This document shows positions 14,506-37,154 of a stretch of DNA of 44,267 nt, piece after piece. Under the pieces are notes generated by a model, which had not been told where the DNA came from, did not search any database, and saw nothing but the letters and a program-made list of their open reading frames with translations. A program made the translations under genes and the position numbers. Each line of letters starts with the position of its first letter. The stretch's first letter is position 1. Source of the DNA: Butyrivibrio sp. (GTDB taxonomy: Bacteria > Bacillota > Clostridia > Lachnospirales > Lachnospiraceae); the NCBI GenBank assembly GCA_024692165.1, contig JAILMY010000169.1, positions 1-44,267 on the forward strand. Direction: 5' to 3'.

Positions 14506-16617
14506 TTAGTTGTCGTTCATGAGCTCATTTGCCTTATTGATAACCATTGAAAAGTCCTTTGTGCCATACATGCAGTAAACTGCACCAACAGCCACATTGA
14601 TCCCACTGTTTTCTATAAGCTTTTTGAACCGGTCCACATCGTTGTTAAAGAACAGCTCATCTGACTCAAAGCCAAAGGCTGCAAACTGAGTACCGGTGAT
14701 ACGATACACATTTGTTTTTCCGAACACATCCATAAGATATGATGACACTTCAATGATCATCTTATCGCCGGAGTCGTAGCCATGGGCATCATTGGCATCA
14801 TCAATACCCTTTATCTTGCAGAGCAGATATCCAAAGGGCGATGAAATGTCCAGTTTTTCACCTATGAATTCTCTGTAAGCTCTTCTGTTGTAAGCCCCTG
14901 AGAGATTATCATTGTAGAAATATGCTTTAAGCCTCTTTTCCTCATCACGACGAAGAATGAACTGTGAGATAAAATATGAAGTCATATCCACAATTCCCGA
15001 CGCCTCCGAGAACTTAGCCTTAGGAATATCAAGCATTACCAGAATTCCCAATATCCTGTCATTTACCTTCAGCCCCCTGGCCACCATATTCTTTACATTA
15101 TTTGCATTAAGGATCTTAAACAGTTCGAAGTTCTCCAGTTTACAATCCTCTGTATTTTCAACAATAAGCTTGTCATTCCGCTCATTAAATATCCTGTAAA
15201 TATCCTCTATAAGACCATGATAAGGAAGGTACAGAAGATCCACTGCTCCGGGATCTCTGCCCTTTTCGTACCAGTCATAGGCGCCGTGATACTTGCCGTT
15301 ATTCTGATCTTCAAAAATGGTGACTCTTCCTGCACCCAACTCTTTTCCCAAAAGACTGAGGATGGCTTTGATACTCTTGTCCGAAGAATCAGAGGAAATC
15401 GCATATTGCATGACCTTGTTGACAAATCTGTCTCTTCGGATTGATTCCTGATCTCTTGTCCACCATCTCAAAAACTGAGTCAACATTATTATGAAAAACA
15501 AGAGTGTCCCATACAGGACAAAGGTGCCATAGGACTCCACATGTAAAATCCCATAAACAAAGGCGAAAAAATCCATCAGAGCGCAGCATAATAAGATGAT
15601 ATTCCCGGCAAACACGTATCTAAGCTGCCTGACAATACCGTTTGTTCTGCAGTAGATGGCATTATCCAGGAATATGATACTGACAATAACTGCGATTACT
15701 ACCAGGTAAATGATCAGAACATTTGTAAAAGTTAAGAGCATATCCACTTTAAAGAAATACCTGGCTATAAGAAGGAAACCGATGCTTGCAGCGGTAATAC
15801 TAAATCCCAGAACATGATATATAAGGCGCTTAAGAGCAGTCAGGGAATTAAAAAAGCATATCAGAGGAAAGCCTGCCAGAAAGACCATAAACCTGTTAAG
15901 GACTCTGCAGGTATAAATAGCTCCCGTCAAAAGCTGCAACGTTTTTGTATCCTCTAAAAGCCATATTCCTATAACACATGCAAATACTCCAAGGGCCGTA
16001 ATATCAAAGGGCAGATTTCTGGAATCATAAATGCACATGGAAACAATTATCATGATTAATCCATAAAGAATAATGATTATGGATATAACCACTCCGGCCA
16101 GACTATTGGAAACCTTCAGCTTGACATAATTCTGGGGCGGACTTATAAATACTTCCCAGACACCGCCTTTTACCAGGCCCTCAAACAGCGGATCAAAGTA
16201 AATGGTTACTACACGGTTATTATCCACGCTTCCAAGTCCAACCTGATGGAAAGCAATACCATATCCCATTCCGCTGATGTTTTCCTTGGAATTAAAAGAA
16301 TACCTCTCTTTACCATCAATGAAGACCTTCAGGTTAACATTGATACTTTCAAAGCACAGGCAATCATCGTCGTTAAGATTGTTCGGCAACTGCTTTGAGA
16401 GGCTAAAGCTTCCTCCGTAGTCACCTACTCTGACATCTTCGACGTAATGTATAATGCCATTCTGATCTCTCCATCCGTCAGAAAAGGCAGTAATGCTATC
16501 CTTATAGCTGTTATCAAAAGTATCTGATCTAAAAAGAGCAATCAAAACCACAACAGCTACAGCTATGCCAAAAATAAGTGATGATATTCTTCTAATGTCA
16601 TAGGTTCGTTTATTCAT
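14506..16617 (-). CDS. 7TM sensor protein with GAF and degenerate GGDEF domain
   Basis: A 703-residue membrane signalling protein. After one helix (about 12-30) comes an outer domain of about 140 residues, then seven helices (about 170-385, 7TMR-DISM-like), a GAF-type domain (about 400-555) and a C-terminal GGDEF fold (about 570-700). The cyclase fold is recognisable (SGAYNRRAYREFI, ANDAHGYDSGDKM), but the active-site motif reads TGTQF (641-645) instead of GGDEF, and the first metal-binding Asp is Lys (CKIKGIDD). It therefore cannot make cyclic di-GMP by the known mechanism and may be a GTP or c-di-GMP sensor or a protein-interaction module. It follows the DegV-containing kinase by nine bases and is likely the third gene of the signalling operon. 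Confidence 0.82.
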   Translation of the reverse strand: MNKRTYDIRRISSLIFGIAVAVVVLIALFRSDTFDNSYKDSITAFSDGWRDQNGIIHYVEDVRVGDYGGSFSLSKQLPNNLNDDDCLCFESINVNLKVFIDGKERYSFNSKENISGMGYGIAFHQVGLGSVDNNRVVTIYFDPLFEGLVKGGVWEVFISPPQNYVKLKVSNSLAGVVISIIIILYGLIMIIVSMCIYDSRNLPFDITALGVFACVIGIWLLEDTKTLQLLTGAIYTCRVLNRFMVFLAGFPLICFFNSLTALKRLIYHVLGFSITAASIGFLLIARYFFKVDMLLTFTNVLIIYLVVIAVIVSIIFLDNAIYCRTNGIVRQLRYVFAGNIILLCCALMDFFAFVYGILHVESYGTFVLYGTLLFFIIMLTQFLRWWTRDQESIRRDRFVNKVMQYAISSDSSDKSIKAILSLLGKELGAGRVTIFEDQNNGKYHGAYDWYEKGRDPGAVDLLYLPYHGLIEDIYRIFNERNDKLIVENTEDCKLENFELFKILNANNVKNMVARGLKVNDRILGILVMLDIPKAKFSEASGIVDMTSYFISQFILRRDEEKRLKAYFYNDNLSGAYNRRAYREFIGEKLDISSPFGYLLCKIKGIDDANDAHGYDSGDKMIIEVSSYLMDVFGKTNVYRITGTQFAAFGFESDELFFNNDVDRFKKLIENSGINVAVGAVYCMYGTKDFSMVINKANELMNDN

Positions 16618-16626
16618 ATAAATCCT

Positions 16627-19600
16627 TTACCGGGCTATGACCGCCTTCATTTCTTCGAAGTTATCCTGTCCCAATAGACTCTCTATTTTATCAAGCTTTT
16701 CTACTACTTCATCAGGAAATCCGTATTCTCTCGCCTCATTAATGGTCTGACTTATGTAGGCTTTATCCTTATCGCCTATTCCCTCTATGAGGGCATCGTA
16801 CATACTCTCTAAAAGATTCTCGTCCACTCCCCCGCAGATTCCCGAAAGTGCCTCTTTATATCTTTTCAGCTGGGTGATAACTTCCTCATTATGCTCACGT
16901 ATATACTCTGTATTTCCTTCTTTACCGGCATTTTCCAGCCCCAGAGCATCCTCAGACAGCTTCATTGCACCCACCAGTTTTGCCGAGCTCTTAAGGGCAT
17001 GGACTTTAATAGTGTAATTCTCCCAGTCCTCTGTATCATAGCATCGGCTTATATCATTAAGCTTTTCGTCGATGGAATCATAGAATATCTTCAGAACTGA
17101 TTTGAAGACATCCAAAGATCCGCTGTTTTGGATTGCTATATTCTGATCCAGTCCCTCTATGCCTTCATACCACACAGGCTCTTTTTCCGACTCTGATTCC
17201 GATAAGCTTTCCCCCGAAATATCATCCCGGGAAGTATCTTCATAGTCTTCATCATAGGCAATGCTTTCAACAACCTCATTTTCATTATCAGGTAAAAACA
17301 TGGAGCCAATCCGGTAAGGTTCAGCATTTTTCTCATAGAACGTAAGTCCCAGTGCTCCGGCACCTACGTTAAGAGCCATAACCGAACTGATCTTAATAAA
17401 TATGATATGTTCAAACTTCTGATTCGCTAAAATGAGCTTTCTTATGTATTCCTTCTGTCTTTCGGTAAGATCCGGATGGTTGACGATGATCATATCCAAA
17501 TCCGGCTTTCTGTAAGCCGGAATCGCGTAGTCTATGTATCTTTTATATGCCTCCTCCAGATCACCTATTTCAAGGCGCTCCATTTTGTATACGCTCTCCT
17601 GGCACTTGATAATGGGTCTGATACTAAAGGTCCTCATGACGTCTGCTATGACCTTGCTGTAGGCATCCTTGGTCCTCATATAAAGGTCTCCGTCTGTAAT
17701 AAAGCTGCAATGAAGGAGTGACCTGGCTTTTCCAAGTTCTTCAAGAATCCTTTCCACAGACTCACCCTTTGAGGCCATCCTTTGAGCCAAAAGTGCTAAA
17801 ACTCCGATGGCACTTGATCCGACACCCGAGTCGAAGATTTCAACATTACCGTAGGCCTTAGCAGCCTGGCTGGCTCTTGAATACTCCTTGCTGACAGTAC
17901 CTGCAGAGGATATGTAGATGACATTAAGAGCTTTTTTAAGCTGCTGGGCAAAAAACTTCTCATACTCCTCAACTGACGGAGTATCAGATTCAAAATTCTG
18001 CCCATTTTTCAGGTATCTCATAAGTTCATCAGTCTGAACCTCAAGCCCGTCATAGAATATTTTATCTTCATGGCGGATAATGAACGGAATGCATTCAATC
18101 TGGTACTTGCTGATCTCACGTCTGGGAAGATCACATATGTTTCCAACTGTAATAACCACAGAAACCCTTCTGTTATAGCCCTTTTTGGTATTCATGGAGA
18201 ATCGTGCCAGGCTGCCATCCCTTAAAGGTACTACCTTGGATTCAGGGAGATAGGAAAGCACCATGTTTTCAAGCTGATTACCTGAAACCGGCTTTACAAG
18301 ATAATCCTCAAATCCGCTTCTTGCATAGAGTTCTTTGCTCTCACCTCCCGTATTTGCAGTCAGAGCAATTATCGGTGTTCTGGTATTTAAACCGGATGGC
18401 TGTTTTCTGATATTCCTAAGGCACTCTATACCGTCCATTTCAGGCATGAGATGATCCATGAAAATAATGTCATAGGCGTTGGACGAGGTCATATCCAGTG
18501 CCTGTCTGCCGCTCATAGCTGTATCTATGGTCATTTCAGCGTCGGCTAGGAGCTTTCTTTCAACCTCAAGATTCATTTCATTGTCGTCAACAATAAGGAT
18601 TCTTACATCAGGAGCAGTAAATCCCGGTTCATAGCTTCCTACAGTGGCAGGATTTTCATAGTTCTCAACATTGAACTCTCCTACGGATTCAGGGCTGATG
18701 ATCTTCTGCCACAGCGTAACCATGAATGTAGAACCCTGGGTGTAAATACTGTTTACAGTGATTCTGCCGCCCATAAGCTCCACCAGATTTTTAACTATGG
18801 AAAGCCCCAGTCCGGTTCCTTCAATTTTGGCATTCTTTTCTTCATCTACTCGTTGGAAGGCATCAAAAAGATATGGAATAGAATCCTGTTTTATTCCCAT
18901 TCCGGTATCGGATACTGAAAAGGTGATCGCCACCTGATCCTCCTGAATGGTCTCTTTTTCGATATACAGAGTAACAGTTCCTTCCTGGGTATACTTGACT
19001 GCGTTACTTAGAAGGTTAATAAGTATCTGCTTGATCCTGACCTCATCTCCAAAAAGCTCTGCTGGTATGGAAGGATCCACCTCCACCTTGAACTCAAGGC
19101 CTTTTTGCTCGGCACGAAGCCATATCATGCTGACAATTTCAGAAACCAGGGCTTTAAGACTATAGTTAACCGGGACAATATCCATTTTTCCGGCTTCGAT
19201 CTTGGAAAAGTCCAGAATATCATTGATGATGGCAAGGAGCATCCTGCCGGCACCCTGGATTTTTCCGGCATCTCTTTTTATCTCTTCTGAAGCATCTTCC
19301 TGCCTTAGGATAACTTCGTTTAGACCCAGAATTGAGTTGATAGGCGTTCTGATCTCATGGCTCATACTGGAAAAGAACCTGTTCTTGGTGTTGTTTAACT
19401 CTTCAACCTTTTTGGTCTCCTCCCTGGCCCTCTTGTTCTCTTCCATGTACAACCTGTTCTGGAACCAGGTCATGACAAAGCACACAATTCCAACCTCTAC
19501 CACTGCCAGAAAAGAATCCATGAACTGTATTTCTTTTCCCTGACTAATAATATATTCCGGGTAGTAATATCCCAAGTAATAGAGGATATAAATGACAGCA

Positions 19601-19995
19601 GTAAGAACAGCCAGCATGGTGAGTCGCCATGCCCCTGATAAAACCAGACCTATATACAGATAGCTGAATACAAACCAGGGAATAGTTCCACCGCTGATGC
19701 CACCGCCAAAGAAAAACGATAATGGTATTACAATCAGGACCACTCCTAAGGATACAATCCTGGTGGTCAGTTCGACCCTTTTATTCTTTACGCCAATGTA
19801 AGTAAATGCAGGAACTGCAACAAGCGTAATTATATGAGTTATGATCTCGATAATATTCTCATCGTATAAGATGTCTCCCAAGAGAGCCAGACTCACAATG
19901 GCAAGCGCAATAATAGTGAGCATGACATACACTCGCTCAGTAAGGCTTTTTGAAGCATCAAACAGCATTTCTTTCAGCTTATTTATCAATTTCAT
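16627..19995 (-). CDS. Membrane hybrid histidine kinase with internal DegV domain and HPt
   Basis: A 1122-residue phosphorelay kinase. Domain order: five or six membrane helices (about 20-180), short coiled coil (185-205), HisKA with His213 (SSMSHEIRTPINSIL), HATPase (Asn331, Asp363 in SDTGMG, GTGLGLS at 393-399), receiver (Asp470-Asp471, phospho-acceptor Asp514 in IIFMDHLMPEMDG, Lys568), a complete DegV-type fold (about 611-889), an acidic linker (905-945), and HPt with His999 (KVHALKSSAKLVGA). All phosphotransfer residues are intact. The DegV part shows the family pattern ICDLPRREI, SDTPSVEEY, YISSAGTVSKEYSRA, IFDSGVGSSAIG and LNVGAGALGLTFYEK; DegV proteins bind fatty acids. Its ATG overlaps the upstream kinase stop by four bases. 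DegV inside a kinase is unusual; the ligand is inferred. Confidence 0.93.
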   Translation of the reverse strand: MKLINKLKEMLFDASKSLTERVYVMLTIIALAIVSLALLGDILYDENIIEIITHIITLVAVPAFTYIGVKNKRVELTTRIVSLGVVLIVIPLSFFFGGGISGGTIPWFVFSYLYIGLVLSGAWRLTMLAVLTAVIYILYYLGYYYPEYIISQGKEIQFMDSFLAVVEVGIVCFVMTWFQNRLYMEENKRAREETKKVEELNNTKNRFFSSMSHEIRTPINSILGLNEVILRQEDASEEIKRDAGKIQGAGRMLLAIINDILDFSKIEAGKMDIVPVNYSLKALVSEIVSMIWLRAEQKGLEFKVEVDPSIPAELFGDEVRIKQILINLLSNAVKYTQEGTVTLYIEKETIQEDQVAITFSVSDTGMGIKQDSIPYLFDAFQRVDEEKNAKIEGTGLGLSIVKNLVELMGGRITVNSIYTQGSTFMVTLWQKIISPESVGEFNVENYENPATVGSYEPGFTAPDVRILIVDDNEMNLEVERKLLADAEMTIDTAMSGRQALDMTSSNAYDIIFMDHLMPEMDGIECLRNIRKQPSGLNTRTPIIALTANTGGESKELYARSGFEDYLVKPVSGNQLENMVLSYLPESKVVPLRDGSLARFSMNTKKGYNRRVSVVITVGNICDLPRREISKYQIECIPFIIRHEDKIFYDGLEVQTDELMRYLKNGQNFESDTPSVEEYEKFFAQQLKKALNVIYISSAGTVSKEYSRASQAAKAYGNVEIFDSGVGSSAIGVLALLAQRMASKGESVERILEELGKARSLLHCSFITDGDLYMRTKDAYSKVIADVMRTFSIRPIIKCQESVYKMERLEIGDLEEAYKRYIDYAIPAYRKPDLDMIIVNHPDLTERQKEYIRKLILANQKFEHIIFIKISSVMALNVGAGALGLTFYEKNAEPYRIGSMFLPDNENEVVESIAYDEDYEDTSRDDISGESLSESESEKEPVWYEGIEGLDQNIAIQNSGSLDVFKSVLKIFYDSIDEKLNDISRCYDTEDWENYTIKVHALKSSAKLVGAMKLSEDALGLENAGKEGNTEYIREHNEEVITQLKRYKEALSGICGGVDENLLESMYDALIEGIGDKDKAYISQTINEAREYGFPDEVVEKLDKIESLLGQDNFEEMKAVIAR

Positions 19996-22061
19996 GCTAT
20001 GCCTCCTGTTCTATGCTTTCTGTTAGAATCAGGCATAACGCTGGTCATGACACGTTCAAATTCGTTTATATCGATGGGCTTACTGATAAAGCCGTCAAAG
20101 CCTTCTCTCAGGAACATTTCCCTGGCACCGCTTATGGCGTTGGCTGTCAGGGCTATTATGCATATGCTCTTATACTGCTGATTTGCAAGGCTTCGTATCT
20201 GCTTCATGGCTTCTATGCCGTCCATTTCAGGCATCATATGATCCATGAATACCACGTCGTAATCATTCTCGGCAAACTTTGCTATAGCCTCCCTGCCACT
20301 GCCGGCAGTATCAATGATCATGTTGTATTCCTTGAAGAGACCGTTGGCCACCACAAGATTCATAGGTTCATCATCAACTACCAGTGCCCTGACTCCATTA
20401 AGTACGGGAACACTATGAATATCATCACGAAGATCCAGAGCCTCCTTTGACTCTCCACTGAGAATTCTTACTATGGAATAGCCATACAAAGGCTTTGGAA
20501 TAAGAACAATTTTGCTGTCCGGTGGTGCCTTAAAATCTCCGGGCGCTGACACAGTTACAACGCATCCTTTATCAGCCAGCTCATCAAAATATTCTTTATT
20601 TGCCTTATACTCTTCATTCCCCATGAATATGTGAGTGATATTTCCTGCATCCATGAGTTTTTTCATTTCCTTGATTCCCGTGGCTGTATAAAGGTTTACC
20701 CGAAGCCCCGCGGCAAGATTTGTAGCCATCTGCCTGTAGAACTCACGAACCTTGGAAACCTGGAATTTTTCAGGATTAAAATGATAGGCAATGTTAATAA
20801 ACCTGCTGTTTTCTACTCTAAGGCAGGGCTGAGGATTTATCACTTCCTGTACTATGCTCACACGGACAGTGGTTCCCTGTCCCGGTTCACTTTCAATTGA
20901 GACAAAACCGTTCATCTTTCTGACAAATCCGTAGACTATTGGAAGTCCCAGTCCAATACCTCCCGTAGAGCGATTTCTCCTTCGGTCAATCTGGTAGCTT
21001 CCCTTGGAAACCCGCTCAATGTCACTGCTTTTCATGCCACAGCCGGTATCCTTGATCTCTATAAGGAGATTATATCCATAATCTCTTCTGCCTCCTGATA
21101 TGTGAAGGTACACACCGCCCTTTTTCGTAAATTTTGTGGCATTACTTAAAAGATGTCTCATGATCTTGCCCAGCTTTCTAACATCGCCGTTCATGACTGA
21201 AGGCACATCGGGGTCAAGATCAACCACCAGCTCAAGACTTCTCTTTTTCCATCTTGCCTTGTAATCGGCAATAACATCGTTAATGAGAGATGTGATCATA
21301 TACTTATCTATCTCAAGAGCCACATCTCCCCTCTCTATTTCACTGTAATCCTGGATATCATCTATCTGCCTTGAAAGGCGTCTTCCTGCATCCCTGATGG
21401 ATTCAATATCTTCTCTTTCCTCACGCTTTAAGATTATGGAGGTAAGACCATTAATTACATTTACCGGCGTTCGAAGTTCATGGGATATATTGACAAGAAA
21501 GTCCTCCATTTCGGACTTTTCTTCCTTTTCAATTTCGTTCCTGTCATTTGTCTCCTCTCTATTTCTGAGCTCTATGTTGATTATTTCCGAAAAAGCCCTG
21601 TAGGCACATAATACAGTGAGAGTATGAAGCGAAACTCTTGTAAAATAAACTGACCTGACAATCTCTTCTCCGCTATTGGCCTGCAAATATAGATGTACAA
21701 TGAACAGCATAAAGAATTCAATGACAGCAAATATAAGGACTCTTTTACGAACAATAATGGCTATTATAGCCATAAGAACCATCATTATCGGCGCAATATC
21801 TTCAAAACTGTCCTTATGTATGCCATGGTAAAAAGAAACCAGCATATACAGGATCAGATAATAATTCTCTCTGAAGTAGGTATTTATCTGATGAGTAATA
21901 TGGATAAACCATGCCCCGGCTACTCCGATCAGGATGAGCGGCGGCACCCAGAACTCCCAGCCCTGAGTAATACTTGCAACGGTAGTTCCCAGGCAGGCAA
22001 TGGTTATTATCATAAGCACAATATTGTGAATCCGGTCAGTATGAGATGTATGTGTTTCCAT
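19992..22061 (-). CDS. Membrane hybrid histidine kinase with receiver, no HPt
   Basis: A 689-residue kinase with about five membrane helices (12-160), then HisKA with His194 (NISHELRTPVNVING), HATPase (Asn307, Asp338 in KDTGCGM, GGIGLGL), a domain of about 120 residues (418-537) that looks like a receiver without its Asp, and a true C-terminal receiver (Asp563-Asp564, phospho-acceptor Asp607 in VVFMDHMMPEMDG, Lys661). There is no HPt domain, so it must pass phosphate to an HPt elsewhere; the neighbouring kinase has one. The ATG at 22061 has GGAGAGG upstream and the gene is first in the operon. The receiver is similar in wording to that of the downstream kinase, which suggests the two are diverged duplicates. 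Confidence 0.93.
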   Translation of the reverse strand: METHTSHTDRIHNIVLMIITIACLGTTVASITQGWEFWVPPLILIGVAGAWFIHITHQINTYFRENYYLILYMLVSFYHGIHKDSFEDIAPIMMVLMAIIAIIVRKRVLIFAVIEFFMLFIVHLYLQANSGEEIVRSVYFTRVSLHTLTVLCAYRAFSEIINIELRNREETNDRNEIEKEEKSEMEDFLVNISHELRTPVNVINGLTSIILKREEREDIESIRDAGRRLSRQIDDIQDYSEIERGDVALEIDKYMITSLINDVIADYKARWKKRSLELVVDLDPDVPSVMNGDVRKLGKIMRHLLSNATKFTKKGGVYLHISGGRRDYGYNLLIEIKDTGCGMKSSDIERVSKGSYQIDRRRNRSTGGIGLGLPIVYGFVRKMNGFVSIESEPGQGTTVRVSIVQEVINPQPCLRVENSRFINIAYHFNPEKFQVSKVREFYRQMATNLAAGLRVNLYTATGIKEMKKLMDAGNITHIFMGNEEYKANKEYFDELADKGCVVTVSAPGDFKAPPDSKIVLIPKPLYGYSIVRILSGESKEALDLRDDIHSVPVLNGVRALVVDDEPMNLVVANGLFKEYNMIIDTAGSGREAIAKFAENDYDVVFMDHMMPEMDGIEAMKQIRSLANQQYKSICIIALTANAISGAREMFLREGFDGFISKPIDINEFERVMTSVMPDSNRKHRTGGIA

Positions 22062-23989: not shown

Positions 23990-25894
23990 TCATTCCTGTG
24001 AAAAAAGTCCTTTTTGCGACTTTAAAAATTCTATATAACCATCTTCAGGTATCGGTCTTGAATAGTAGAAGCCCTGAAGATACTCAACCTTTTTATCGAT
24101 AAGAATCTTTGCCTGATCCAGATTCTCAACACCCTCTGCCAGAATATGAAGCCCAAAATCCCTCAGGAAATTGATGGTATAATCCAGCATTTTAAGATTC
24201 TCAGGTTCCTCCGGATCAAGGCACTTCCACACAAACTCTTTATCCATCTTGACCAGAGCATAGTCCATTTTAAGGATTTCAATGAGGTTTGAATATCCCG
24301 AACCAAAGTCATCCATTGAAAAAGAACTGCCCTTTTCCCGTAGGCGTCTGACATTCTCCATAAATACCTTGTCGTTGCTGATATAGGAGGTCTCCGTAAT
24401 CTCGAAGTTTATAAATTTAGGCGGTATATGATATTTTTCCATCTTACTGGAAAGTCTTGAATGGGTGTGCTCATCCACCGCCTCATTTCCCGAAAGATTA
24501 ACCTCTATCATCTTTACTCCGTAGGATGAGAGGTTTTCCCTTGCTATGAAGGAACAGACCTTTTCGAAAACAAGATCGTCAATCTCCTGTATAAGTCCGC
24601 ACTTCTCGGCTACCGGAATGAAATCCTCAGGAGAAATGAAGTTCTCATCGTCCTTCCTCTTAAGCCTTACCAGGGCCTCTGCCGATGAAAAGGATCCGTC
24701 TTCAACGCACAGGATTGGCTGGTAGTAAACATCGAAAGCCTTGTCCATTACCGCCTGTCTTACCACATCCTCTATGGAATATCTGAACTTCATCTTGCCA
24801 ATGACTGTATCATCGATAACAAGATTCGGTGAGGACTGGGTATATACATACTCTCCTGAAACAAAGGTAAGGGCCTGCACCGCCTCGTCAATGTTCTTTG
24901 CATATTTAGGGTGTTCCAGAATGCAAAAGGTCAGTCTGTAATTGGCTCCGCTCTCCTTCATTCCGTTGACCAGATTCATGAAAGCCTCAGCCTTTTGCGG
25001 AGTTTCAACAATAAAGCTCAAGGTATTCCAGTTAAAAAGAAAGGCCGGTGTTCCGATGTAGCTGTCTGCCATCTGTGCTATCTTCACCTGCATTGAAGAA
25101 AGTTCATTCCTGTCAGAGTTGGTCATGACAGTGGTCTTTCCGGTAAAAACAACCGAGACGATGAAAAAGCTCTTTTTCTGAGCCATTTTCTCTATAAGGA
25201 CCATCTGAAAGGCATCTCTGTTTCTTACTCCCTTAAGAGATCTTTCATAGAACTCCCTGGGATTTTCAAGGGACAGGAAAAGAATCAGCGACATAAGCAT
25301 CATAGCGATTGAAGAAACCTGCACATCTCGCTGGATAAACTGGAAAAGAGCCAATCCCGTCCATATCAGAAGTCCTACGACAATAACAGAAAAATCCTCT
25401 CTCTTTATCCTGTCGTGAAGGACCACAACCCTTAGAAGAGATGTGAGAATGTAGGTAAAACCTACAAGATAGCATACGGATATGGCCGTTCCGGTATTGT
25501 AATAGCGCCCATCTTCAAAGCCATAGCTTATATCTCCAAGGGCCAATGCTATATATGCAAATAAAGCCGGAATCGAAGCTGGCACCACTGCCTTCCATGT
25601 AAGTTTGGCCTTACGGGTGGTCTTTGAATAGCAGTATATACACATAACAAGAGCTGCCAGAACAAGAGTCCCTGCGTACAGGTTCTGGGAAGATCTTCTT
25701 AGCATACTGTAAGTATCATCCAGTCTCTGGAAAGCTATGCACTCAAATATCTCGCATAGATTGCACAAAAAGCACACAACCAGAAAGCAGAAGAAAATCC
25801 TCGAAGCCATAAGCTGCGGAAGCCCCTTCCTCAGGTAGATTATTATTAATATGACTGCTATCAATAAAGCAATTATTGGTGATCGTATTTCCAT
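23990..25894 (-). CDS. Membrane EAL-domain cyclic di-GMP phosphodiesterase
   Basis: A 634-residue protein with about six or seven helices (5-210), a pseudo-GGDEF-like middle (about 220-360, no GGDEF motif) and a C-terminal EAL domain (about 375-625). The EAL catalytic set looks complete: EAL at 406-408 (SAEALVRL), Asn466 (EVNLSGN), Glu498 (FEITETS), Asp528-Asp529 (DDFGSGYSN), Lys549, Glu587 (LAEGVEN) and Gln607 (QGFYYSRP). It should cleave c-di-GMP to pGpG at the inner face of the membrane. The only good promoter places the transcription start at or next to the ATG, and no ribosome site is visible, so the message may be leaderless. Confidence 0.9.
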   Translation of the reverse strand: MEIRSPIIALLIAVILIIIYLRKGLPQLMASRIFFCFLVVCFLCNLCEIFECIAFQRLDDTYSMLRRSSQNLYAGTLVLAALVMCIYCYSKTTRKAKLTWKAVVPASIPALFAYIALALGDISYGFEDGRYYNTGTAISVCYLVGFTYILTSLLRVVVLHDRIKREDFSVIVVGLLIWTGLALFQFIQRDVQVSSIAMMLMSLILFLSLENPREFYERSLKGVRNRDAFQMVLIEKMAQKKSFFIVSVVFTGKTTVMTNSDRNELSSMQVKIAQMADSYIGTPAFLFNWNTLSFIVETPQKAEAFMNLVNGMKESGANYRLTFCILEHPKYAKNIDEAVQALTFVSGEYVYTQSSPNLVIDDTVIGKMKFRYSIEDVVRQAVMDKAFDVYYQPILCVEDGSFSSAEALVRLKRKDDENFISPEDFIPVAEKCGLIQEIDDLVFEKVCSFIARENLSSYGVKMIEVNLSGNEAVDEHTHSRLSSKMEKYHIPPKFINFEITETSYISNDKVFMENVRRLREKGSSFSMDDFGSGYSNLIEILKMDYALVKMDKEFVWKCLDPEEPENLKMLDYTINFLRDFGLHILAEGVENLDQAKILIDKKVEYLQGFYYSRPIPEDGYIEFLKSQKGLFSQE

Positions 25895-29161: not shown

Positions 29162-31669
29162 TTAGTTGTCTTGTACCTTAAAATCTATGGCTATGCTTGC
29201 ACTGAGCGGTTTACTGAAGTAGTAGCCCTGAATAGCATCAGCCTCAAACTCCAGAAGTCTTTCATACTGCCACTTTTCCTCAACGCCCTCGATGACAATG
29301 GTCTTGTTGAGGTCATGGGCAAGAAGAATAACATCCTTAATAAAGCTGTCCTTGCCCTCCACCAGAAATGCATCCACCAGGGACTTGTCCAACTTGATCT
29401 CATCAATAGGCACATAGGTCAGGTATCCAAGGGATGAATAGCCTGTTCCAAAGTCGTCCAGAAGCAGCCTGATATTCAGATCCTTCACTTTATCAAACAG
29501 CTTCATGGTCTGGTGATTCTTTTCAAGGAAAAGACTCTCCGTCATCTCAAGCTGCACGTATTTGGAAGGTATATCATTTTTCTCCAAAAGTTCTTTTAGA
29601 TATGCAGGATAGGTATGGTCGTTTATCTGCTTAGTTGAGAAATTGATGGATACCGGCACCAGCTCTTTTCCCTGTCTCTTCCACAGGGCCAGCTGCTCAA
29701 CTACAATCTTCGTGGTGATTCTTCCAAGCCTTGCCACAAGACCGTTCTTCTCAATTACCGGGATAAATTCAGCCGGAGGCATATCATAGTTTTTTATGCG
29801 TACAAGCGCTTCAAATCCCAGGAGCATCTTGGTTCTGGTATCAATCTTTGGCTGATATACCATGTAGAAAGCCTCGTTCTCGAAGGCTTCCAGGATAACA
29901 GCCTTGATTCGGTTCTCATCCCTCATCTTAAGCTGCATGGACTCCGTAAATACCGATGCCATATCCTTGCCTCGTTCCTTGGACTCGTACATGGCAATCT
30001 CGGCATTGATGATATGCTGCTCAGGACTTGATACGCCGTCAGAATTGGCAATACCGATACTTGCCGAAAGCTGTATGGTTTCAGTGCCAATAGTCATAGG
30101 CTGCCTGAAGAATTCCAAAAGATCGTTTATTTCCAAGGATTTCTCATTAAGTGACGTACCGGGAACCATTATGATAAACTCATCACCGCCATATCTTCCA
30201 ACCAGCCAGTGATAGTTTTGCTCAAGGCGCTTTAATTCAGCAGCCAGGTGTTTTAAGATATCGTCACTTATAGCATGACCGTAATTTTCATTGATGGTCT
30301 TAAAGCCGTCCAGATCCACCATCAGGATTGAATACATATCAGACGGTTTCAGCTTCAGATTCAAGGTTGCCACTATGGATTTTCTGTTGAGAATATCCAG
30401 AAGCTCATCGTGCTCCGCTGCGTAAATAAGCTGCTTCTGAGACTTTTCCAAGTCCTCCTTGGATTTTTTTATCTCGGCATTGGCCTGTTTTTGTTGCTCC
30501 ACTGCCAGATTTGATGTAAGGATAAACATCAAAAGAGCCGTGATGATAAGCACCGCAACCGGAATAATGTCGCTGTAATACCCAATGATACTGACAGGCT
30601 TATCTATATACTGTGTATCATCTGGCAAAAGCTTTTCATCAATCCCATACTTCTGCATAAGCTTGTAGTTGTAGCTGGTAACGCTTGGAGTATCTACATC
30701 AAGAGGATATTGGCTTATATCTGCATCCTCTGATAGAACCTCATAAATAATCTGGGCCGCTTCCCTGCACTGGGCTTTAAAGTCCATATATGTGCCCCCA
30801 AGAACGCCCTGATCTCTTCCTCCCGAATAGTTTCGGAAAATCGGAACCTTTGCGTAGGTTACAACAGTATTTGTCCTATCCAGTACAGAATAGGTCTTTC
30901 CTTCCACGTCCAAGTAACAGGTCATGTAAAAGAGCACAGAATCCTCAGGGAGTTCCTCAAGCGCCTCAATGAGCTGTTTTTCAGTGATCTTGGAGGTGTT
31001 GATATCTATGAACTTGTGGTCGGGATATTTCTGATCATAGGAGTAGAAAATGTCTTCATCTTCACGACCTGCAGCAGAATCATCATGAAGAGCCACAAAG
31101 GTCTTCCGATCCGGTAATGTGGCTATTGCAGTCTCTATGCATTCTTTTAGATAATCTTTTTCATAAAACCCTGTCATCATAGGGTTCTTTGCAGCGGTCT
31201 TAGCAAGATCAATATCATTGATCCCAAAATACACCATAGGATAGTCTTTAAATAACTCTTCCTGGTGCTCTAAAGCAAATAAAAGAGCATCGTCATCTCC
31301 CAGAAGAACTGCCTCATAGCCTCTGTTCTTTTTCAGCCTTTCCTTGAGAAAGGTATAGAAATGCAAAGTGTCCCCATAGGTACCATAGTTTTTGGTATCC
31401 ATAAAGACAACATCGTATTCGATTCCATTGGGATAAAGACCTTCCTTAAGTCCTTCCGTCTGGGCTTCATATGTAAAATAAAGAGGATTATATGCGCACA
31501 GAAACAGTACGCGGTGATCAACCTTTGTAGGTTCGGAAATCATGTATTCGCTATCGTCTTTTCCGGATATCATTGCAAGCATGAAAAGAGCTGCGATCAG
31601 CATCAATGTACCAATCACAGTCAGTGTGTAACGGATATAATGGAGCCGTCCCTTCCTATCCCTGTCCAT
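29162..31669 (-). CDS. GGDEF-EAL protein with extracellular ABC-substrate-binding-type sensor
   Basis: An 835-residue membrane protein. After a helix (about 13-34) comes an outer domain (about 50-315) resembling the ABC_sub_bind periplasmic-binding fold (VLFLCAYNPLYFTYEAQTEG, VYFGINDIDL, IFRNYSGGRDQGVLGG), then a second helix (365-388), a coiled coil, GGDEF (about 415-570) and EAL (about 585-830). The cyclase site is intact (DLDGFKTIN, GGDEF at 494-498), without the RxxD inhibition site. The EAL site also looks complete (EAL 620-622, LEMTES, DDFGTGYSS, EGVEE, QGYYFSKP). It may make or break c-di-GMP depending on the ligand. The start has only a weak ribosome site. A TATAAT at 31710-31715 lies upstream but without a clear -35. 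Confidence 0.92.
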   Translation of the reverse strand: MDRDRKGRLHYIRYTLTVIGTLMLIAALFMLAMISGKDDSEYMISEPTKVDHRVLFLCAYNPLYFTYEAQTEGLKEGLYPNGIEYDVVFMDTKNYGTYGDTLHFYTFLKERLKKNRGYEAVLLGDDDALLFALEHQEELFKDYPMVYFGINDIDLAKTAAKNPMMTGFYEKDYLKECIETAIATLPDRKTFVALHDDSAAGREDEDIFYSYDQKYPDHKFIDINTSKITEKQLIEALEELPEDSVLFYMTCYLDVEGKTYSVLDRTNTVVTYAKVPIFRNYSGGRDQGVLGGTYMDFKAQCREAAQIIYEVLSEDADISQYPLDVDTPSVTSYNYKLMQKYGIDEKLLPDDTQYIDKPVSIIGYYSDIIPVAVLIITALLMFILTSNLAVEQQKQANAEIKKSKEDLEKSQKQLIYAAEHDELLDILNRKSIVATLNLKLKPSDMYSILMVDLDGFKTINENYGHAISDDILKHLAAELKRLEQNYHWLVGRYGGDEFIIMVPGTSLNEKSLEINDLLEFFRQPMTIGTETIQLSASIGIANSDGVSSPEQHIINAEIAMYESKERGKDMASVFTESMQLKMRDENRIKAVILEAFENEAFYMVYQPKIDTRTKMLLGFEALVRIKNYDMPPAEFIPVIEKNGLVARLGRITTKIVVEQLALWKRQGKELVPVSINFSTKQINDHTYPAYLKELLEKNDIPSKYVQLEMTESLFLEKNHQTMKLFDKVKDLNIRLLLDDFGTGYSSLGYLTYVPIDEIKLDKSLVDAFLVEGKDSFIKDVILLAHDLNKTIVIEGVEEKWQYERLLEFEADAIQGYYFSKPLSASIAIDFKVQDN

Positions 31670-35001: not shown

Positions 35002-35685
35002 TCAATGACAATCTTTTTCTCTTTCTCTCTGGGCCTTTGAAAAGCTGCAACCGCAGAAATCCTGCCGATAAAGATCAAATTTGTGAGAAAGCTCTATTGA
35101 CCGCTTATAGCCGTTCTTTTTCTTGAAGTCCGATGGAAGGAACTCAGTTCCCTTAACTTCGGCGCTGGCAGCCTCTCCTACTTCGTTTAGTACATCGGCG
35201 TTCTTAAGAGGGCTGATTGTCAGGGTGGTGGTGAAATAATCAAAGCCATTTTCTTCAGCTACCTGAGCGGTCTTACGAAGTCTTAGTTCAAAACACTTTC
35301 TGCAGCGTTCTCCGCCTTCCTTGCAGTCCTCATAGCCTCTTGCCGCATCAAAGAAATCCGATGGTTTGTACTCGCCCTCGATTATCTCAATAATCCTGGC
35401 GTTCTCATCGGAGTTCATGCCTTCAAAATTCTTTTCCCTAACCTGTCTGTTGTACTCCTCGATAAGCCTCTTCTCCTCAATTACGCGCTTCCTGTACTCG
35501 CTTTCCTCCGTAATATTTGGATTATAAAAAAAGACTGTTATATCAAAGTACTCCCTAAGATACTCGAGGCAATAGGAAGAACAGGGGGCGCAGCATGCAT
35601 GTAATAGCAGCTTTGGGTGCGCTGCCTGCCTTTGAAACTCCTCTATTTTCTTTTCTAATTCCTTACTGTAATTTCTGCTGTTCAT
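35002..35685 (-). CDS. queH: Epoxyqueuosine reductase QueH
   Basis: A 227-residue iron-sulfur enzyme that makes queuosine from epoxyqueuosine in tRNA, the alternative to QueG. HACCAPCSSYCLEYL provides the first Cys pair, GGERCRKCFELRL the second, and the C-terminal DLYRQDFCGCSFS the third. FTTTLTISPLKNADVLNE and FLPSDFKKKNGYKRSIELS are family signatures. The ATG overlaps the aroE-aroK stop by four bases. No other queuosine genes are in the window. Confidence 0.93.
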   Translation of the reverse strand: MNSRNYSKELEKKIEEFQRQAAHPKLLLHACCAPCSSYCLEYLREYFDITVFFYNPNITEESEYRKRVIEEKRLIEEYNRQVREKNFEGMNSDENARIIEIIEGEYKPSDFFDAARGYEDCKEGGERCRKCFELRLRKTAQVAEENGFDYFTTTLTISPLKNADVLNEVGEAASAEVKGTEFLPSDFKKKNGYKRSIELSHKFDLYRQDFCGCSFSKAQREREKDCH

Positions 35686-37154
35686 AGTCCTATGGCGGCG
35701 ATGATCTCGTCTGCGATGTCTGCCGCTTTCTTTCCATCTGTATCGATAATAATATCCGCAGCCAGCTCGTACCTTTCGCTGCGATCACCAAGTAGCTCTT
35801 TTATCCTTCCAAGAGGATCCTCAGTCCTAAGAAGAGGTCTGGTATCATCTCCCTGAAGTCTGTCGTAAACCGTCTCCGGCTGTGTCCTCAAGTATACCAC
35901 TTTGCCGGCCTTTTTAAGCAGTTCCCTGTTTTCTTCCCGAAGGGGAAGTCCTCCTCCCAGAGAAACCACCATTCCGGTTAAGTGCTCTGAGACCACCATA
36001 TCTAAAAGGTCTGTCTCCATGCCCCTGAAGGCCTCTTCGCCATCCTCTGCAAAAATCTCATTTATCGTGCGGCCCTCGGCCTCTTCAATAGCCTGATCTG
36101 TATCAAGAAGCTCAAGATCAAGCTTGTCAGAAAGGATTTCAGACACAGTAGTCTTGCCGCTTCCCATAAAGCCCTCAAGGATAATGTTGGATGCACCAAG
36201 AACCTCCATCTCCATCATTCTGTAAACTTCGTCGGCCTGCTCCCTGGAAATCGTAATGTCTTTTCCCTCAGACCTGTTCCAAAGCTCAAAGGCATCAATG
36301 CCCTGATACAGAAGCATCTTAAGACCGGAAAAGCTCTTGGCACCGGCCTCTGTTGCCAGCTTCATAAATTTGGTATTCACGGGCCTGTAAACCATATCGA
36401 TGGCAACGCTTACATGCTTGTAAAACTCTTTATCCTCTATAACAGCGCTGTTCACATCAGGGAAAAGACCTACTGACGTACACTGCATAACGATGTATTT
36501 CTCATCTCCCCCAAGGAGCTTACTATAGTCCTCTATAGGCATCGGAACAACCTTTTTCTCATAATCCACAGGTTCTCCGTCAGCTTCCATCCCATCTTCT
36601 GTCAGTTTATCCTCTGTTCCCAATTTTGCCAGAGCAATGTTGACTTCATCTGCCACAGCCTCTGCTTTATCAAAGGTTCTGTTTAGAACATATATTGCCT
36701 TGGCCCCTTTGCTGCCGCATAAAAAAGCTGCAGGTCTCGACACTCCACCGGCGCCAAGGATGATGACCTTTTGTCCCTCGAGACCAATACCCTCATCCAT
36801 CATGGCACGATAAAGCCCCGACATGTCGGTATTATAGCCCTTAAATCCACCGTTTTTGGTTCGAACCAGAGTATTGACCGCTCCGATTCCCTTTGCCAGA
36901 GGATCAATTTCCTCAAGATAAGGAATCACCGCGCTCTTATGAGGGATTGTGACATTAAGTCCCATCACATCCAGAGCATCAGCGCCTCTGATGGCATCGC
37001 CGACGTTCTCCTCCCTGACCTCAAAGGGCACATACACAAGATTGATTCCAAACATCTGGGCAAGAGTGTTATGTATAAGTGGTGAAAGAGTATGCTTAAC
37101 CGGATTTCCAATAAGTCCGCATACTCTGGTGTTGCCGTCCGTGAAATTCGCCAT
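35682..37154 (-). CDS. Fused shikimate dehydrogenase - shikimate kinase
   Basis: A 490-residue bifunctional enzyme of the shikimate pathway. Residues about 1-305 are AroE (IGNPVKHTLSPLIHN, MGLNVTIPHKSAV with catalytic Lys, VIILGAGGVSRPAAF, the NADP site, and GLKMLLYQGIDAFELW). Residues about 318-490 are AroK (ILEGFMGSGKTTVSEIL Walker A, LDTDQAIEEAEGRTI, FRGMETDLL, VSLGGGLPL, DDTRPLL). The two steps, dehydroshikimate reduction and shikimate phosphorylation, are consecutive, so the fusion joins them. An acidic insertion (about 188-215) interrupts the AroE part. GGAGG precedes the ATG by five bases. The fusion order dehydrogenase-kinase is known in some Clostridia. Confidence 0.93.
   Translation of the reverse strand: MANFTDGNTRVCGLIGNPVKHTLSPLIHNTLAQMFGINLVYVPFEVREENVGDAIRGADALDVMGLNVTIPHKSAVIPYLEEIDPLAKGIGAVNTLVRTKNGGFKGYNTDMSGLYRAMMDEGIGLEGQKVIILGAGGVSRPAAFLCGSKGAKAIYVLNRTFDKAEAVADEVNIALAKLGTEDKLTEDGMEADGEPVDYEKKVVPMPIEDYSKLLGGDEKYIVMQCTSVGLFPDVNSAVIEDKEFYKHVSVAIDMVYRPVNTKFMKLATEAGAKSFSGLKMLLYQGIDAFELWNRSEGKDITISREQADEVYRMMEMEVLGASNIILEGFMGSGKTTVSEILSDKLDLELLDTDQAIEEAEGRTINEIFAEDGEEAFRGMETDLLDMVVSEHLTGMVVSLGGGLPLREENRELLKKAGKVVYLRTQPETVYDRLQGDDTRPLLRTEDPLGRIKELLGDRSERYELAADIIIDTDGKKAADIADEIIAAIGL

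Follow-up and report, generated by a model that had tools for sequence, protein, structure and literature searches.

The window, by which we mean the whole 44,267-nucleotide stretch of Butyrivibrio DNA analyzed here, encodes a hybrid histidine kinase that carries a DegV domain between its receiver and its HPt domain. The kinase gene stands in an operon on the reverse strand, behind the gene of a second hybrid kinase and ahead of a gene for a membrane protein.

19992..22061, (-) strand: partner hybrid kinase, 689 aa, HisKA-HATPase-(405-556)-REC, no HPt (Pfam, neighbor analysis)
16627..19995, (-) strand: DegV hybrid kinase, 1122 aa, TM-HisKA-HATPase-REC-DegV-HPt (ORF call, Pfam, relatives)
19456..19995, (-) strand: N-terminal membrane region of the DegV kinase, residues 1-180, about 5-6 hydrophobic segments (hydropathy)
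19189..19386, (-) strand: HisKA, residues 204-269, His213 (Pfam)
18709..19050, (-) strand: HATPase_c, residues 316-429 (Pfam)
18259..18600, (-) strand: REC, residues 466-579, Asp514 (Pfam)
17332..18153, (-) strand: DegV domain, residues 615-888 (Pfam, predicted fold, alignment)
17176..17292, (-) strand: linker before HPt, residues 902-940, predicted disordered (pLDDT < 50)
16873..17097, (-) strand: HPt, residues 967-1041, His999 (Pfam)
14506..16617, (-) strand: 703-aa membrane protein, GGDEF-like domain degenerate, gene 9 bp downstream of the kinase gene (ORF call, Pfam)

The window kinase has a complete His-Asp-His relay set. HisKA, HATPase, REC, and HPt are all present with their active residues by Pfam and alignment, and His213, Asp514, and His999 are invariant in an alignment of 26 kinases that carry an HPt behind DegV (the HPt class), as are N327, N331, D363, G393, G395, and G397 of HATPase_c and D470, D471, D514, and K568 of REC. 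The only Pfam match to the membrane region was sub-threshold (DUF6057, E 0.0076). A preliminary description of this DNA had placed a complete DegV domain at about residues 611 to 889, between receiver and HPt, and had suggested a structure prediction as a check. Pfam indeed gives the order REC-DegV-HPt, with PF02645 matched over its full length at 111 bits (cut-off 27) across residues 615-888; the segment also scores 117.7 against TIGR00762 (cut-off 99.7), and its predicted fold is that of DegV/FakB, the matched structures including FakBs loaded with fatty acid. We conclude that the embedded DegV domain is real. A full-length AlphaFold model of the kinase (pTM 0.38) was uninformative on REC-DegV contact and was not used for domain contacts.

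We collected 118 relatives of the window kinase, 116 with kinase domains, one DegV-HPt protein, and one in which a membrane region is joined to DegV (TM-DegV). A first search covered 99 related genomes, and long-frame matches listed (>400 aa) were fetched, except G034:C204, which measured 553 aa in that search and 289 aa in another reading. Among the matches listed there were 94 DegV ORFs: 57 had all five domains, 31 were HisKA-HATPase-REC-DegV without HPt, 3 lacked a domain (L075 and two frames that were short or cut), and 3 had DegV alone, one of these with a membrane region and no kinase. These ORFs occur in 37 of 61 Butyrivibrio genomes, at 1 to 7 each, with none among the matches listed for the other 24. 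Confinement to Butyrivibrio is nonetheless rejected, as members exist in at least 15 other genera of the family and beyond. Searching 392 genomes of the order with a profile built on the embedded domains gave at least 25 long-frame places in at least 21 non-Butyrivibrio genomes, and the same for 245 genomes of the class added at least one genus, with two genomes, from beyond the order; these counts are lower bounds because 6 or 10 candidates were scored per genome and weak rows went unlisted. The places outside the genus span at least 15 further genera of the family and at least one genus of another family. The 26 proteins used from outside the genus (24 of the 25 order-search places and two from the class search) repeat these architectures, with one DegV-HPt protein in addition. 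The remaining matches listed for order and class were mostly frames of 200-382 aa, with five in frames of 580-606 aa; three of the five were fetched, and proved to be two Dak2-FakA_M-DegV proteins and one 469-aa protein without an assigned N-terminus. The set of 118 leaves aside L196 (contig edge), L214 (stand-alone), and four more long-frame places of the genus (two each in G406 and G414), and it retains the partial or edge frames L117, L119, L078, L121, L207, and L201.

The DegV kinase is one half of a pair. In the window, the partner gene and the DegV kinase gene share 4 bp. Neighbors were counted over 117 loci, L096 not having been placed by the gene picker, and at 107 of them the gene immediately upstream, on the same strand, encodes a second hybrid kinase, with an overlap of exactly 4 bp in 72 of the 107. 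The two kinases may be translated jointly. Four of the ten other loci end at a contig edge with no gene left, and six have another gene or a stub in that place. In Pfam nothing matched residues 405-556 of the window partner below E 0.08, and the PDB gave a single row, at E 1.5; a pseudo-receiver is only our guess.

The pairs obey a rule, in that exactly one HPt is present per kinase pair in 106 of 107. The HPt is on the DegV protein and not on the partner in 61 pairs, and on the partner and not on the DegV protein in 45. The sole pair without any HPt is that of the TM-DegV protein (L091:5456-7006 (+)), a 516-aa protein in which the membrane region is joined directly to DegV, without a kinase, behind a partner kinase. 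A further reduced form is L205:4887-6131 (-), a DegV-HPt protein without a kinase behind a HisKA-HATPase-REC gene. The two locations of the HPt are not equivalent, as the phospho-accepting His is present in 64 of 65 DegV-protein HPts versus 28 of 45 partner HPts. The 17 partner HPts that lack it (e.g., L076:8101-10581 (-) and L101:8499-11003 (-)) all belong to pairs whose DegV kinase has no HPt (the no-HPt class). Thus, some pairs of the no-HPt class probably have an inactive HPt, which argues against a simple relay everywhere. In a tree of the HPts, built on few columns, the labels cluster, with 3 changes for DegV-protein HPts and 2 for partner HPts, without pointing to a direction of movement. 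A quick tree of the DegV domains, in which long outgroup branches meet, takes 2 changes between HPt and no HPt.

The HPt may sit on either gene, but REC and DegV usually stay together. The linker between them is 20-27 aa (median, 22) in 90 proteins of the genus, versus 51-109 aa between DegV and HPt in 59 genus members, and 90 of the 91 kinase ORFs in the genus set have REC immediately ahead of DegV. The near-constant spacing and the variable place of the HPt suggest that DegV belongs with the receiver and argue against a gate on flow from receiver to HPt. The preliminary description had envisaged such a gate, with flow from receiver to HPt depending on a bound acyl lipid. A kinase that reads a lipid is still the best explanation, but the gate is unsupported, as 52 of the 118 relatives have no HPt after DegV and, in the 45 readable pairs noted above, it is the partner that carries the HPt. 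The exception to the REC-DegV order is L075:4971-7421 (-), an 816-aa HisKA-HATPase-DegV-HPt protein that has no REC and no membrane region and looks complete; its partner kinase retains REC. Thus, REC is not indispensable for DegV to function or at least to survive, and the notion that the two never separate is rejected. REC-DegV is the usual unit and not an absolute one.

Whether the embedded domain might still hold a ligand was judged from residues with known roles in FakB, as given in the available parts of PMC8892158 and PMC9136124. Residues were mapped, in FakB1 numbering, through an alignment of 92 embedded genus domains (59 of the HPt class and 33 without HPt, the latter including the TM-DegV protein and L117), 34 stand-alone DegVs, and four solved chains. 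The stand-alone DegVs, 33 of the genus and one from another family of the order, are mostly the best match per genome and so are not a random sample; they comprise 32 of 34 loci submitted (L136 and L137 failed a filter), L104 from the other family, and one neighbor in L048. In the window kinase, Thr62 corresponds to Ser670, the ligand serine Ser95 to Ser702, and His270 to Asn876, and the last agrees with the preliminary description. Its statement that the paired serines are kept at 696-697 reflects a misalignment, as the Ser-Ser of FakB corresponds to Ala698-Gly699, two positions further on. Within the HPt class of the genus, Ser or Thr at position 62 and Ser at position 95 occur together in 55 of 59 domains (Ser95 in 57), and Asn replaces His270 in 46. 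Moreover, Cys is found at position 158 in 56 of 59, at position 271 in 52, and at both in 49, versus none of the 34 stand-alone DegVs. S/T62, Ser95, Asn270, Cys158, and Cys271 are each present in all five HPt-class kinases from other genera. Of the 34 stand-alone DegVs, 27 have Tyr at the His270 position, which is thus no clean marker, and the Asn should not be over-read.

The residues that serve the FakB cycle tell a different story. Arg173, which acts in catalysis, and Arg205, which docks FakB to FakA and the membrane, are described as completely conserved in FakB (PMC8892158, in the part available). The window kinase has neither (Ala778 and Ile810, respectively). Arg205 is absent from 92 of 92 embedded domains of the genus and from 25 of 26 outside it, and present in 33 of 34 stand-alone DegVs; Arg173 is found in 6 of 59 HPt-class domains, 24 of 33 no-HPt domains of the genus, and 34 of 34 stand-alone DegVs. 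The Arg205 equivalent is also missing from both FakA-type (Dak2-FakA_M-DegV) fusions from other genomes, and its loss may therefore only reflect fusion. At the lid position (Trp180), 5 of 92 embedded versus 33 of 34 stand-alone domains have a hydrophobic residue, which makes FakB-style uptake from the membrane unlikely. Among tunnel positions, 191 is hydrophobic throughout the 92 embedded genus domains (59 of 59 in the HPt class) and 267 in 57 of 59 of the HPt class, while 121 and 162 are partly polar (hydrophobic in 38 and 39 of 59, with Gly and Thr in the window). The pattern fits a head-group site retained in altered form and a FakB shuttle cycle abandoned. The no-HPt class keeps Ser95 in 14 of 33 domains and the two hydroxyls together in 11; its site is less FakB-like, and ligands may differ between the classes or binding may be lost there. 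We note that a stand-alone 287-aa DegV (L214:4769-5632 (+)) has kinase-type residues (Asn270, Cys271, no Arg173 or Arg205) and was perhaps detached from a kinase.

We tentatively favor, at a shade below an even chance, a reading in which the DegV domain is a FakB-derived, FakA-independent acyl-lipid sensor in a two-kinase phosphorelay and acts via REC. A FakB-type domain would have been captured by a membrane hybrid kinase and become an intracellular sensor. The segment would no longer serve FakA because the docking Arg205 is lost, and the ordinary Fak role is covered in the same genome by four stand-alone DegVs plus a FakA-like gene. The ligand would probably be an acyl lipid bound at its head group by Ser670, Ser702, and Asn876. 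Because DegV comes close behind REC with near-constant spacing, occupancy of DegV would most likely set how REC takes, keeps, or loses the phosphoryl group, and so change REC phosphorylation lifetime. Input from the membrane and input from DegV would then converge on one relay, with the state of REC setting the net flow from both kinases through a single common HPt and onward to a response regulator encoded elsewhere in the genome. Butyrivibrio live in the rumen and hydrogenate polyunsaturated fatty acids that inhibit growth. Growth of Butyrivibrio fibrisolvens is restrained by linoleic and linolenic acid until these are converted, according to the part of PMC2836310 available, and free fatty acids are thus a physiologically apt candidate ligand in Butyrivibrio, as a setting and not as proof. 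If the lipid-sensor reading is true, a FakB-derived lipid receptor sits within a signaling kinase, and with up to 7 copies per Butyrivibrio genome, it offers a testable candidate for intracellular fatty-acid sensing by gut bacteria.

Alternatively, the domain may have lost ligand binding and serve as a rigid docking or dimerization block that pairs the kinases and positions the relay domains, much as RcsC and RcsD have extra linker domains. The missing Arg173 and Arg205, a lid that is no longer hydrophobic, the near-constant REC-DegV spacing, the pairing of the kinases, and the poor retention of the hydroxyls in the no-HPt class are all compatible with a structural module. Moreover, the REC-less L075 slightly raised our estimate for it and lowered that for the lipid sensor from an even chance to just under one. 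A scaffold need not keep pocket residues, however, and the HPt class has a coherent pocket signature both within the genus and in 5 of 5 kinases outside it, as expected for a ligand site that was retained but changed. We consider a structural module unlikely, though the likeliest of the alternatives.

Another reading keeps the sensor and changes its ligand to something other than a fatty acid, either a lipid with an uncharged head group or an electrophilic or oxidized lipid caught by cysteines of the pocket. Asn at the carboxylate site is in keeping with such a ligand. Positions 158 and 271 are acyl-tunnel residues in FakB1, and the cysteines that the HPt class so often has at both, and none of the 34 stand-alone DegVs does, make redox or electrophile sensing possible. 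The window protein, however, has only the first (Cys763), position 271 being Val877, and we regard a modified-lipid sensor as rather improbable.

FakB carries acyl-phosphate, as stated in the available part of PMC9136124, and the embedded domain could similarly be a partner of FakA, its bound acid being phosphorylated and passed to lipid synthesis or to REC. Retention of Arg173 in 24 of 33 no-HPt members is in keeping with such a carrier. Arg205, the key residue for FakA binding, is missing throughout the 92 genus domains, however, and Arg173, essential for catalysis, is rare in the HPt class and absent from the window, and the carrier seems very unlikely. Acetyl phosphate feeds some receivers, and REC and DegV might likewise form a phosphoryl-exchange unit in which a DegV-borne acyl-phosphate donates to, or is made from, the REC aspartate. 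Such an arrangement would wire the activated-fatty-acid pool directly into a two-kinase phosphorelay, and the fixed REC-DegV spacing and the kept Ser670 and Ser702 allow it, but the loss of Arg173 and the existence of the REC-less L075 make it just as improbable as the carrier. Finally, although the window assembly is a draft of 246 contigs at 87.34% completeness, a chance fusion or assembly artefact is hardly credible, as the same gene occurs in Butyrivibrio sp. MC2021, VCB2006, XPD2006, INlla14, NC2007, and CB08, whose records carry no MAG label, the active sites are invariant across domains, and 57 of the 94 listed ORFs have all five domains.

Parts of the favored lipid-sensor reading have counterparts in known systems. 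The embedded domain resembles FakB/DegV proteins (PF02645) in its whole fold and profile and, in the HPt class, in two hydroxyls of the carboxylate site, and differs from them in lying inside a kinase, in lacking Arg205 and usually Arg173, in having Asn at His270, and in a mostly non-hydrophobic lid. Reuse of a substrate-binding relative of a small-molecule kinase as a receptor is seen in DhaQ, the DhaK-fold co-activator of the dha operon. RpfC, the DSF sensor of Xanthomonas, has the domain order HisKA-HATPase-REC-HPt, the same as in the window kinase, and to our knowledge has no DegV domain. It is a membrane kinase directly activated by a fatty acid, while a lipid switch is only proposed for the DegV kinase: DSF binds a 22-residue N-terminal sensor region of RpfC and changes autokinase activity (PMC5391125, in the part available). 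Fatty acids also inhibit SaeRS signaling in Staphylococcus aureus, where intracellular free fatty acid controls the two-component system (PMC5539427, in the part available); there, unlike here, FakB and kinase are separate and are linked via the fatty-acid pool. The pairing of kinases is reminiscent, in gene content only, of another system with two membrane kinase-type proteins and one HPt, RcsC/RcsD/RcsB. In that phosphorelay the two proteins share one HPt, and RcsD, the HPt protein, has a degenerate kinase core. In contrast, both window kinases keep their catalytic motifs, the HPt may be on either gene, and no RcsB-like gene lies beside the operon. L075, which lacks REC, is the most RcsD-like relative. 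If sharing between the kinases holds, a single HPt could reside on either gene of a two-kinase phosphorelay with the rest unchanged.

The conserved system of two paired kinases is seemingly undescribed. The preliminary description knew of no system with this architecture, and none was found among the best matches in the openly available papers searched. The available parts of PMC3146951, PMC9912610, PMC3091722, PMC8931315, and PMC3533761 likewise do not mention a DegV kinase. In the available part of PMC3091722, a table on Listeria lists a "DAK2/DegV domain-containing protein." We note that in other class members (L217:1866-3665 (-) and L219:719-2500 (+)) Dak2 and a FakA-like middle domain are fused to DegV, and such Dak2-FakA_M-DegV proteins are possibly one-chain fatty acid kinases.

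No response regulator gene was found adjoining the window operon. The downstream membrane protein matches GGDEF at 29.3 bits, has the signature TGTQF instead of GGDEF, and is probably not an active cyclase; proteins of the same cluster adjoin DegV kinases in 19 loci. Among the downstream neighbors of relatives, 26 of 117 bear a REC and are shorter than 330 aa; in 20 the REC is C-terminal and preceded by an unassigned half, and in 6 it is N-terminal. The unassigned half had no Pfam match in the one protein examined. Three full-length proteins with a C-terminal REC are encoded elsewhere in the genome of the window, two of them beside DegV-free kinases. A relay layout without DegV is found in the same genome at L227:3402-7202 (+), where a gene for a 1266-aa HisKA-HATPase-REC-HPt kinase is followed by one for a 253-aa REC protein. 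Several genes of cyclic-di-GMP type occur in the window, among them, close to the operon, those for an EAL protein (23990-25894 (-)) and a GGDEF-EAL protein (29162-31669 (-)). Finally, a single 490-aa protein encoded in the window at 35682-37154 (-) combines shikimate dehydrogenase and shikimate kinase domains.
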